Below are positions 56,415-60,056 of a DNA stretch of 64,000 bases, in pieces; positions within the stretch are counted from its first letter, which is position 1, and the number at the start of each line of letters is the position of its first letter. A program made the position numbers and the translations under genes. The notes beneath the pieces are model-generated. The model did not search any database. It was not told the origin of the DNA and was given only the letters and a program-made list of their open reading frames with translations. The stretch spans positions 1,302,001-1,366,000 of the forward strand of contig NZ_CP036402.1 in assembly GCF_004322855.1 (NCBI RefSeq), read 5' to 3'. This stretch comes from Egibacter rhizosphaerae. GTDB lineage: Bacteria > Actinomycetota > Nitriliruptoria > Euzebyales > Egibacteraceae.

Positions 56415-56777
56415 TCAGTAGCTGAAGGTCGTGGCGCCGTCGCCGATCCATTCCCAGAGCGGCACGGTTCCCTGGATCTCGGCGTTGGGCAGCAGGTCAC
56501 CCTTGTCGAGCTGACGAGCGTTGAAGCAGACGGGGCACACGTAGTACTGACCGCCCGCATCGGCGTACCGCTTCATCAGGTCCGGCAAGGGCGGACAGCC
56601 GTCGCAGGCGACGCCGACCGCCACCCCCTCCTGCGCGAGCCGCACCGCCTCCTTGGTCAGGAACATCAGGGGCGGCCGTCCCGACTCGGCGGCGCCCACC
56701 GCGACGAGGAACGCCACGGTGACGGTCTCGGCGTCCTCGAGTCCGGTGGTGAGGCTGATCACGCTCTTGTCCGACAT
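56415..56777 (-). CDS. DsrE-family protein
   Basis: The ATG at 56777 follows AAGGAGG; 120 residues. MSDKSVISLTTGLEDAETVT, AVGAAESGRPPLMFLTKEAV and GVACDGCPPLPDLMKRYADA are DsrE/TusD-like. The Cys pairs in CDGC and YVCPVCFNARQL are candidates for sulfur relay or metal binding. DsrE-type proteins carry persulfide sulfur or act in thiol and arsenic/selenium-related chemistry. It starts 16 bp after the true end of the UGA-containing methyltransferase gene, the same operon, and should be its partner. Confidence 0.85.
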   Translation of the reverse strand: MSDKSVISLTTGLEDAETVTVAFLVAVGAAESGRPPLMFLTKEAVRLAQEGVAVGVACDGCPPLPDLMKRYADAGGQYYVCPVCFNARQLDKGDLLPNAEIQGTVPLWEWIGDGATTFSY

Positions 56778-56793: not shown

Positions 56794-57573
56794 TCACTGC
56801 TCGGGTTTGCGGGCGCGTATCGGGTACCCGAAGGTGCCGAACGCCCGCGCCTTCTCCTCGCCGCTGGCACCAGCGAACGTGTCCGTGGCCGGGCCGAACT
56901 CGACGTCGACGAACCCGGCCTGCTCGATGACCGCCTGCCACCCTGCGCACGGCAGGGCACCGGCGATTCAAGCGGTCCAGAGGTCGACGTCGGCTCTGGC
57001 TTCGTCGGGGACCGGCTGTTCCAGGCAGATGTCGCTGATCTGGAGGCGCCCACCGGGACGCAGGACTCGGAAGAGCTCCCCGTAGCCGGCGGCCTTGTCC
57101 GGCACGAGGTTCATGACGCCGTTCGAGATGACGACGTCCGCCCAGCCGTCGGGCAGCGGCATGTCCTCGATGACGCCCTCGTGGAACGTCACGTGGTCGA
57201 GTTGCTGCTCGGCGGCGGCACTTCGAGCACGGACGAGCATGGCGTCGTTCATGTCGACCCCGACCACCTCGCCCTCCGCGCCCACCGCTCGAGCGGCGAT
57301 CAGAGCGTCGGCGCCGGCCCCGGAGCCGACGTCGACGACCCGCTCCCCCCGAGCGGGCAGGCCCCAGTGGAAGACGTTCGCGACTCCTGCGAACGCATCG
57401 ACAGCATCGACGGGCAGGCCATCGACGAGATCAGCTCGGTAGCCGAGGTGGTCCATCGCCGGCCGTCCGGTGTGGAAGTGGTGCTCGGCCTCGGGTTCCT
57501 CGGCCACCTCCTTGTACTTCAGGGTGATCTCGCTGCGTAGCCGGTCGACGTCCACCGGCACATGGCTACTCAT
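56794..57573 (-). CDS. ArsM-like SAM methyltransferase with in-frame UGA, probable selenoprotein (Sec202)
   Basis: The ATG at 57573 (GGAGGGG upstream) opens a frame of 201 codons to a TGA at 56968-56970, then stays open 57 more codons to a second TGA (56794-56796): 259 residues if the first is read as Sec. SAM motifs VVDVGSGAGADALIAARAVG and VVGVDMNDAM lie before, FRVLRPGGRLQISDI after. The UGA is in DLWTA-U-IAGALPCAG; beyond it DTFAGASGEEKARAFGTFGY and PIRARKPEQ are clear arsenite-methyltransferase C-terminus. The neighbouring paralogue has Cys at that place. Alternatives are a nonsense mutation or an assembly error. It probably methylates arsenite or a related thiophilic substrate. Confidence 0.75.
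56941..56957 (-). promoter_or_regulatory. Candidate bacterial SECIS stem-loop after the in-frame UGA
   Basis: On the minus strand, 10 nt after the UGA (ATCGCCGGTG), comes CCCTGCCGTGCGCAGGG: a perfect 6-bp stem with a 5-nt loop, CGUGC, with G at the second loop position. A 17-nt apical stem-loop about 11 nt after UGA is the geometry of the E. coli fdhF SECIS that SelB binds. An alternative pairing (CCTGCC with GGCAGG) is also possible. The paralogue with a Cys codon is nearly identical for 14 nt after the codon and then lacks the stem. Confidence 0.6.
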
Positions 57574-57682: not shown

Positions 57683-58894
57683 TCAGGGCAGGAGGCAGTC
57701 CATGCAGACGAAGCGCAGCGGCTCCGAGCCGGTGTTCTCGACTGCGTGCGGGTCGGTGGGGGCGACGGTGAACACGTCGCCGGGTTGCAGGGGCTCCTCG
57801 TCGTCGCTCAGGCGGAGTCGGCCCTGGCCGCTGACCATGACCGCCTCGTGCGCCTGGGGATGGGTGTGGAAGGGCGTCGACTCGCCCACCGCCACGTCGA
57901 GGACCTTGAGCTCCACGTCGTCGTCCTCGACGCGTTTCAGGTGGCGCACGGTCACTCCGGGAGCCTCGACCGAGTCGGGGTGGATCGCGTCGAGCGGCCG
58001 ACGGGTCGTCGCGAAGCTCGCGGGTGAGGCGGCACCGCTGCTCGCGCCGTCGACGCGCTGCGCTCCACGGGGCTGCGGACCAGCGGGCACCGCCGGGTCG
58101 CTGGGCCGTTCGGCCCGTACGATCACCCCCTGGGCGACCCGCTCCTGCGCGGAGGTGGGGATGAGACGCCGCATGAGATCGACCACTTCGGGGGGAAACA
58201 GCGGGTAGGCGGCAACCTCGTCGATCCCGAACGGCGTGTGCTCGCTCACGGCCACCCCCGCCAGGCCGGCACGGCGCAGCTTCTTGCTGAGCACCTGCTC
58301 GGAGAGGGCACCGGCGATGCATCCGGCCCAGGCGGCCCCGCTGGCGAGGACCTCGGGCGGGAGCTCGCCTTCGACGATGAGGTCGGCGACCACGAGACGT
58401 CCGCCGGGGCGGAGCACCCGGGCGATCTCGGCGATCGCGCGGCTCTTGCGTGGCGAGAGGTTCAGCACCCCGTTCGAGATGACGACGTCCACGGACGTCG
58501 ATGGCAGGGGCAGCGCCTCCATCTCGCCGACCAGGAACGTGCAACGATCGGCGACCCCCGCGTCGCCGGCCAGCCGGTGGGCGCGCTCGACCATCTCGGG
58601 CAGCGCGTCCACGCCCAGCACGCGACCGGTGGGTCCCACCCGACGAGCGGCGAGCAGGCTGTCGATCCCTCCGCCACAGCCGACGTCCAGCACGCGCTCG
58701 CCAGCAACGGGATCGGCGCTCCGCACGGGGTTGCCGACCCCGAGGGCCCATTCGATCGCGGCCCCGGGCAAGGCGTCGAGCTGGTCGGCAGCGTAGAACC
58801 GCTCGGCCACTGCCCGCCCGGCGCCGGTCCGCAGCTCCCGATAGGTCGACCGCACCACGTCGCGGATCTCGTCCTGGAACATGAGATCGCTCAT
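57683..58894 (-). CDS. ArsM-like SAM methyltransferase fused to a cupin domain
   Basis: The 403-residue protein has a methyltransferase domain (residues about 30-235; VLDVGCGGGIDSLLAARRVG, VLGVDALPEM, ISNGVLNLSPRKS, VLRPGGRLVVADLIV) with the Cys motif AWAGCIAGALSEQVLSKKL. A C-terminal cupin (about 325-400; PFHTHPQAHEAVMVSGQGRL, EPLQPGDVFTVAPTDPHAV) probably binds a metal. The start ATG overlaps the anti-sigma stop (ATGA). It resembles arsenite methyltransferase without the N-terminal Cys pair, so the substrate may be arsenite or another soft metal or metalloid. Confidence 0.85.
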   Translation of the reverse strand: MSDLMFQDEIRDVVRSTYRELRTGAGRAVAERFYAADQLDALPGAAIEWALGVGNPVRSADPVAGERVLDVGCGGGIDSLLAARRVGPTGRVLGVDALPEMVERAHRLAGDAGVADRCTFLVGEMEALPLPSTSVDVVISNGVLNLSPRKSRAIAEIARVLRPGGRLVVADLIVEGELPPEVLASGAAWAGCIAGALSEQVLSKKLRRAGLAGVAVSEHTPFGIDEVAAYPLFPPEVVDLMRRLIPTSAQERVAQGVIVRAERPSDPAVPAGPQPRGAQRVDGASSGAASPASFATTRRPLDAIHPDSVEAPGVTVRHLKRVEDDDVELKVLDVAVGESTPFHTHPQAHEAVMVSGQGRLRLSDDEEPLQPGDVFTVAPTDPHAVENTGSEPLRFVCMDCLLP

Positions 58895-59154
58895 GGCTCG
58901 GTACCCCTCCCCTGCGATTCGGCGAACCCGTCGATGAGGGCATCCAGCCGCTCGTGGACATCGGGCGGCAGGTGGCTCTCGGTTCTGCTGGCCAAGAGCC
59001 GGCGCAGTTCGCGCGCGAACTCGAGCTCCCCGCAGCAGCGACGGCAGAACGCGAGATGCGCCTCGAGCTGCTCCCGGTCCACACCGTCGAGGCCCTGGTC
59101 GAGGAAGTCCCAGAGCTGCGCCACGGCGTCCTGGCAGCCGATCGGTGTCGTCAC
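58891..59154 (-). CDS. Zinc-finger anti-sigma factor (zf-HC2)
   Basis: The 87-residue protein has the ZAS motif: QLEAHLAFCRRCCGELEFAR (HxxxCxxC), plus an N-terminal Cys in TPIGCQDAV. No membrane helix, so it is a soluble redox- or metal-sensing anti-sigma factor. The GTG start overlaps the sigma stop (GTGA), and its stop overlaps the methyltransferase-cupin start (ATGA), so the three are tightly coupled. Release of the sigma factor by thiol oxidation or by metal(loid) binding is the natural hypothesis. Confidence 0.87.
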   Translation of the reverse strand: MTTPIGCQDAVAQLWDFLDQGLDGVDREQLEAHLAFCRRCCGELEFARELRRLLASRTESHLPPDVHERLDALIDGFAESQGRGTEP

Positions 59155-59825
59155 GGGCCCACTCCCCTCGCTCCCCCCGCCGCGTTGGTCCCTTCAGGTC
59201 CCCGCGGGGGGCCGCTGCCGGATGCGGGGGCGCTCGCGGTCCCCGAGCCGGCCGCGGTCAGCTCACTCAACAACCCGGACTCCTCGGCATAGCTCCACAT
59301 CTCGCGTTCGAACCGGTGGCGCCCACGGTGCAGCTGGGAGAGCACCGTCCCGAGCGGAAGCTCCAGCATCTCGGCGATCTCGGCGGTGGCGAAGCCCTCG
59401 ACGTAGCGCAGGACCAGCGGGCCTCGATACTTGGCCGGCAGGCGCTGCAGTACGAGGTGCACGTCCTCCTCGCTGAACGCACCGAGGAAGTCGATGTGCA
59501 GGGTGTCGGAGTAGGGCGCCGGATCCTCCTCGATGAGTGTCCGGTAGAGCGAGAAGCCCTCCTCCTCGTCGACCAACACCTCCCCCGGATCCCGATAGCC
59601 CTTGCGGAGCCTGTCGCGCCAGACGTTGGTGAGGATGACACGCAGCCACTTGGTCGCGGCCTGACGATCGCGCAGCGAGCCGTAGGACCGGCAAGCCCGC
59701 AGCAGCGCCTCCTGGACGAGGTCCTCCGCGTCGGCCCCGGCCAGTCGCCGCGCGAGCGCGTAAAGGCCCGGCAGCTCCTCGCGGGCGAGGAGCTGCAACG
59801 CCGTGCGGTCCTCGGTCTCCAGCAC
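59151..59825 (-). CDS. ECF sigma factor heading the methyltransferase/DsrE cassette
   Basis: The GTG at 59825 has GGGAG 5 bp ahead, giving 224 residues (ATG at 59864 is the alternative, without a ribosome site). Region 2: [55 protein letters not shown]. Region 4: LPAKYRGPLVLRYVEGFATA, LPLGTVLSQLHRGRHRFERE. The C-terminal 40 residues are Gly/Pro/Ala-rich. It is SigR-like in overall plan and first of a five-gene row on the minus strand, so it probably controls its own cassette. The 230-bp region upstream should contain its promoter. Confidence 0.9.
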   Translation of the reverse strand: MLETEDRTALQLLAREELPGLYALARRLAGADAEDLVQEALLRACRSYGSLRDRQAATKWLRVILTNVWRDRLRKGYRDPGEVLVDEEEGFSLYRTLIEEDPAPYSDTLHIDFLGAFSEEDVHLVLQRLPAKYRGPLVLRYVEGFATAEIAEMLELPLGTVLSQLHRGRHRFEREMWSYAEESGLLSELTAAGSGTASAPASGSGPPRGPEGTNAAGGARGVGP

Positions 59826-60056
59826 GAACGCTCCCGACCTCCCCCGTCCGTGGTCGACGACCATCGGCCCGCGCGGGCCGGTCGTGGACGCCCGTGTGAG
59901 CCGGTGTGCCGTCGAGCGGCAGCGACGTCATCGTCACCCGACGCGGCGCGTCTGTCCACCGCCTGGTGAGCGGAACCGGACCGCACACGCCGGGCCATGG
60001 ATAAGGACGTTCGATTCCGACGCCACATTGCACGGTGCCCACCTCGACCCGTGAAC

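Follow-up and report, generated by a model that had tools for sequence, protein, structure and literature searches.

A predicted selenocysteine-containing methyltransferase of the ArsM fold encoded near an ECF-type sigma factor in Egibacter rhizosphaerae

The window, i.e., the whole stretch of 64,000 nucleotides of the Egibacter rhizosphaerae genome that was analyzed, contains on its minus strand a row of genes that are separated by small gaps or overlap slightly. The first encodes an ECF-type sigma factor with the domains Sigma70_r2 and r4 (59151-59864, minus strand), and directly adjacent to it lies the gene of an anti-sigma factor, a zf-HC2 protein with an Hx3Cx2C motif (58891-59154, minus strand). 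Next is MT2 (57683-58894, minus strand), which encodes a methyltransferase with a fused cupin domain, and then its paralog MT1 (56794-57573, minus strand, stop codon included), which encodes a SAM methyltransferase of 259 residues with an ArsM fold that is predicted to be a selenoprotein. The gene of a DsrE-family protein (56415-56777, minus strand) starts 16 nt past the MT1 stop codon. Judged from this arrangement, the sigma factor, the anti-sigma factor, MT2, MT1 and the DsrE protein are probably encoded in one operon.

The reading frame of MT1 starts with the ATG at 57573, and after 201 codons it reaches a TGA (56970-56968), which is followed by a further 57 codons and the TGA stop codon at 56796-56794. 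The internal TGA (56968-56970, minus strand) is the codon of the proposed Sec202; MT2 of the window has Cys at the equivalent position, and several of its relatives have Sec. The initial annotation had described the 57 codons past the TGA as open and family-like, and the segments AGFVDVEF, DTFAGASGEE and GYPIRARKPEQ were indeed all found there. It was also correct that the frame contains neither a frameshift nor a stop besides the TGA at codon 202, and that the adjacent paralog reads WAGCIAGAL. The MT1 domain is a class I SAM methyltransferase (Methyltransf_31, 109 bits). MT1 thus has a UGA within its frame and a conserved coding region past it, the pattern of bacterial selenoprotein genes.

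Selenocysteine incorporation requires a dedicated machinery, and a lack of selA, selB, selC and selD had been named beforehand as an observation that would speak against a selenoprotein. However, all four are present in the host genome of 4.64 Mb. It encodes SelA (profile score 350 bits), SelB (295 bits versus a cut-off of 242), SelD (360 bits) and a tRNA-Sec with the anticodon TCA (UCA), which scored 72.5 bits versus a gathering score of 47. As an aside, selD of the host is itself a selenoprotein gene with one in-frame TGA in the context GAGUACK (G000:C1:795781-796701, minus strand, L018).

The TGA was found at the identical MT1 codon in 27 distinct verified loci, i.e., the window and 26 others, from many families of Actinomycetota, although most of these relatives are MAGs and are not independent of one another. 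The homologs of the Nitriliruptorales have also kept the TGA. Frames disrupted at random places in the relatives, which would have pointed to gene decay, were not seen; instead, the TGA stands at the same codon. Downstream of the UGA the dN/dS ratio was below 1 in every MT1 comparison, and the same was true upstream of it, where the out-of-frame stretch of L096 was left out. These results bear on the possibility that the TGA is an ordinary stop codon, so that a protein of 201 residues is made and the frame past the TGA is the remnant of a decaying pseudogene, or that it is a sequencing error for TGC. TGA does serve as a normal stop codon elsewhere in the same operon. However, the identical TGA recurs in the 26 other, separately assembled loci, the sequence past it is under purifying selection, the hairpin described below is constrained, and the Sec machinery is complete. 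A pseudogene, a sequencing error and a plain stop were therefore rejected on the basis of TGA conservation and post-UGA selection, and this explanation is extremely improbable. Two further cases were treated separately. A second MT1 copy in the genome G002 (L065:3222-4326, minus strand) retains the TGA, but its frame is broken upstream of this codon, which points to either a damaged copy or an assembly error; it was counted apart from the 27 verified loci. A second TGA in G001 was considered and turned out to be an ordinary stop codon past the last conserved residues.

At residue 202 the alignment of homologs contained Sec (TGA) in the 27 MT1 loci and Cys (TGC) in three MT1 proteins (L092, L093 and L094). 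In the tree these three Cys proteins are nested inside the Sec clade. Among the MT2 proteins of the same tree, those with Sec form a clade of their own, next to members with Cys, namely those of the window and of L056, L057, L067, L093 and L094. The MT2 equivalents with a TGA at the same position are those of L041, L052, L058, L059, L060, L065, L096 and L105, most of which have a SECIS-like hairpin of their own. A loss of the Sec machinery as the reason for the Cys forms was not supported, as SelA is still encoded in all three genomes with a Cys MT1. SelA was detected in 25 of the 26 testable genomes with a verified TGA, compared with 233 of 392 genomes sampled across the phylum; the 25 include G220, in which SelA is a fragment only, while G098, a TGA genome, is without SelA. 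By itself, the co-occurrence with selA carries little weight, as the gene is present in 59% of the phylum's sampled genomes.

A hairpin of SECIS-like geometry had been proposed to follow the TGA, and it was found at 56939-56959 (minus strand). It has a stem of 8 bp, the loop CGUGC, which starts 16 nt past the TGA, and a minimum free energy of -11.3 kcal/mol. Thereby it conforms to the published bSECIS model, which specifies a loop of 3-9 nt, a stem of 4-16 bp, a G in the first two loop positions, a spacing of 16-37 nt and a minimum free energy of at most -7.5 kcal/mol (PMC13188914). A scan against Rfam gave no match to a known RNA family at the locus. In the single sequence the hairpin is not significant, because 6-8% of random window positions yield a comparable hairpin with -10 kcal/mol or below. 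In contrast, the conservation, the covariation and the synonymous codon constraint were significant. In an alignment of 27 rows the eight pairs were formed in 92% of the cells, versus 30-49% when the partner strand was slid by 1-3 columns, and 16 double changes were observed versus 5.6 after shuffling. RNAalifold recovered the same hairpin. In addition, Ala210 is encoded by GCA in 19 of the 20 members with the sequence LPCAGW, while GCA accounts for only 5% of the Ala codons in these genes; the remaining member has GCG, with which pairing is still possible. The hairpin is present in the Sec homologs and absent from the Cys homologs of both MT1 and MT2, in which the best hairpins under the same rules ranged from none to -5.1 kcal/mol. 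The MT2 genes with Sec have a different hairpin with the same loop CGUGU, in most cases 21 nt past the UGA.

The hairpin also helps to judge whether the UGA might be read as Trp or Cys by near-cognate suppression, i.e., without selenium. Read-through as such would fit the conserved frame. However, the hairpin is conserved, has the published geometry and is missing from the Cys homologs, the homologs without UGA have Cys and not Trp, and nearly all carriers possess the Sec machinery, so that near-cognate suppression is very unlikely. The selenoprotein prediction of the initial annotation was thus borne out by the Sec machinery, the conservation of the UGA, the sporadic exchange of Sec and Cys, the covarying hairpin and the purifying selection past the UGA, and on these comparative grounds MT1 is almost certainly a selenoprotein.

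The structure of MT1 was modeled with AlphaFold2 on an alignment of 30 members (pLDDT 93). The top structural match was CmArsM (4fr0, Z 26.6, 212 residues, 1.9 A), and 6cx6 was also matched, so that the class I SAM fold of MT1 is closest to ArsM structures. In the alignment with CmArsM, Sec202 corresponds to Cys224 within a gap-free stretch, while Gly152 and Val64 stand at the positions of Cys174 and Cys72. Residue 202 is the sole invariant Cys/Sec column of the MT1 family. In the SAM-binding motif, the residues D81, G83, G85, G87 and D107 show no or almost no variation, and a segment HFHTGR is conserved. It is very probable, as far as can be predicted from sequence and model, that MT1 is a Sec-containing class I SAM methyltransferase of the ArsM/AS3MT fold with Sec202 at the substrate site. 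The initial annotation had assigned Sec202 a role in binding or transfer with a thiophilic substrate, and a contact with such a substrate is plausible, because Sec202 takes the place of Cys224 of CmArsM.

The earlier label "arsenite-methyltransferase-like" is appropriate for fold and homology. Cys residues at the positions 72, 174 and 224 are conserved in ArsM (PMC5552862), so that MT1, which has Val64, Gly152 and Sec202 instead, does not belong to the canonical ArsM proteins. There is no support for arsenic specificity, because only one of the three positions at which ArsM binds As(III) through Cys has a counterpart in MT1, and the neighborhoods point to sulfur trafficking. Nevertheless, MT1 could be a true arsenite methyltransferase that methylates As(III) for detoxification, with Sec202 acting alone or together with His, and the selenoprotein claim would be unchanged by this. 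The best sequence and fold matches of MT1 are ArsM proteins, and Sec-containing arsenite methyltransferases with the same UxxG motif have been catalogued (PMC13188914). Furthermore, one Cys in the active site, assisted by two His, is sufficient for arsenite methylation by TtArsM of Thermus thermophilus (PMC8649762), so that arsenite is still a possible substrate of MT1, in which HFHTGR is conserved. On the other hand, the equivalents of Cys72 and Cys174 are lacking, MT1 misses the cut-off of the family model NF008823 (201 versus 263 bits), no arsenic gene cluster was identified among the conserved neighbors of MT1, and the sole Acr3-superfamily match of the host genome is 2.6 Mb away. Methylation of arsenite is thus a possibility to be kept in mind, albeit not a probable one. 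As a separate observation, there is an ArsM-like gene of the canonical Cys type (ISNC, CIAGAL; L116:5001-5552) on a plasmid of Streptomyces sp. NBC_01450, for which PLSDB lists no annotation.

The genes around MT1 were compared in 31 loci, and sigma factor and anti-sigma factor genes were near MT1 in 14 of them. Besides this pair, the paralogous methyltransferase is a conserved neighbor, and many loci also encode proteins of sulfur trafficking (DsrE, TusA, rhodanese and persulfide-dioxygenase-like proteins). Near MT1 genes with Sec, DsrE was present in seven loci, a persulfide-dioxygenase-like MBL protein in five, a cupin in four, and TusA and DsrE2 in two each. Other MT1 loci contain ArsR-rhodanese regulators and MFS transporters, as well as DsrE2, TusA-like domains, cupins and MBL proteins, the last of which are read as putative persulfide dioxygenases on the basis of a Lactamase_B match and a fusion to rhodanese. 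Representatives of DsrE, DsrE2, TusA, MBL, MFS and cupin had no match in 313 kb of other sequence, unlike the ArsR-rhodanese set, which does have a match there. The link to sulfur is suggestive only, because about half of the MT1 loci do not have a sulfur gene within 4.5 kb. In L058 (6385-7401, minus strand) the frame of the Sec MT1 continues into a TusA-like domain, which might be a fusion for sulfur delivery, and a similar-looking, putatively TusA-like tail is found on MT2 of L052. In L100, L103, L062 and L109, MT1 is clustered with an ArsR-rhodanese regulator, an MFS transporter and a persulfide-dioxygenase-like MBL protein, and these clusters resemble sulfane-sulfur response operons. The plasmid pCO-6 of the alphaproteobacterium Chelatococcus sp. 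CO-6 (L114, 4193-6759) carries a sigma/zf-HC2/cupin/methyltransferase cassette, in which the methyltransferase has Cys and a second, short methyltransferase is apparently truncated.

The sulfur-trafficking neighbors, the cupins and the thiol-type anti-sigma factor would also fit a redox enzyme or sensor, in which Sec202 is peroxidatic or handles persulfides on a retained SAM fold, and the presence of only one invariant chalcogen residue in the MT1 family is in line with this. However, the SAM-binding motif has been kept, and methyl transfer is thereby implied to have been kept as well, so that a redox function in vivo is unlikely.

It is likely that MT1 is a SAM methyltransferase for a soft substrate of the chalcogen or metalloid type, and most likely it methylates a soft substrate that is bound to a thiol, under the control of redox stress. 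Based on the anatomy of the gene and the comparative evidence, SelB and tRNA-Sec would insert Sec at UGA202 with the aid of the hairpin directly downstream. Sec202 would then be placed like Cys224 of CmArsM, which binds arsenic beside the methyl group of SAM, and its selenolate would most likely capture a thiol-bound sulfane-sulfur, selenide or metalloid-thiol species, which DsrE, TusA or rhodanese partners might hand over. The substrate would be held on Sec202 for methyl transfer from SAM, and the methylated product would be less reactive or volatile. Expression of the operon would probably be induced under thiol or metalloid stress by the ECF sigma factor after its release from the thiol/zinc sensor, i.e., the anti-sigma factor. 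A sulfur or selenium species as the actual substrate is a tentative assignment. The most far-reaching proposal, an uncatalogued Actinomycetota-wide family of Sec-dependent methyltransferases whose substrates are sulfane sulfur, sulfide or selenide and not arsenic, which are induced by a thiol-sensing ECF sigma factor and in which two neighboring paralogs of the same operon gained Sec separately, is doubtful as a whole.

As had been predicted for the window, standard annotation would truncate MT1 at residue 201, and this applies to every carrier genome; no NCBI selenoprotein model covers the protein. The MT1 branch is widespread in Actinomycetota, and in this phylum the family connects the use of selenium with stress operons under ECF control and with sulfur trafficking. 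In the two paralogs MT1 and MT2, Sec and Cys occur naturally as pairs at a single catalytic position, some of them within one operon, which makes the advantage of Sec in methyl transfer to soft substrates directly testable.

No literature was found that links the organism group of Egibacter to an MT1-type selenoprotein. The statement in the initial annotation that Sec-containing ArsM proteins exist is confirmed by two catalogues: a selenoprotein table includes "Arsenite S-adenosylmethyltransferase" (PMC5029168), and Sec arsenite methyltransferases with the motif UxxG are listed under NF008823 together with the fusions NF041536, NF041537 and NF047649 (PMC13188914). Sec at the UxxG position of arsenite methyltransferases is thus already known, and the MT1 branch fits no catalogued selenoprotein family model. 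The fusions NF041537 (ArsM/AhpD, UU), NF041536 (ArsM/DUF2284, UU) and NF047649 (MTase/UXPK-star) share the ArsM-like methyltransferase domain and UxxG with MT1, but they contain two or more Sec, whereas MT1 is a single-domain protein with a single Sec. Membership was rejected by score (218/510, 200/575 and 186/460 bits, respectively). NF041537, the best-scoring NCBIfam model for MT1, demands a C-terminal AhpD domain, a further Sec and more than 510 bits, while MT1 has one internal UGA and no extra domain; among 396 genomes of the phylum, not one passed the cut-off. TtArsM (PMC8649762) resembles MT1, by description, in lacking the canonical Cys set and having one active-site Cys, but it has Cys where MT1 has Sec, and it is evolutionarily distant from other ArsM proteins. 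CmArsM (4fr0, 6cx6) and human AS3MT (8xt7) have the class I SAM fold of MT1, and CmArsM differs from it at Cys72 and Cys174. The Sec arsenite S-adenosylmethyltransferase (NF008823/PRK11873, WP_011987699.1; PMC13188914, PMC5029168), which was compared by catalogue description and family score, shares the fold and the UxxG Sec motif; in contrast to it, MT1 scores below the NF008823 cut-off and resides in ECF sigma factor or sulfur-trafficking loci of Actinomycetota.
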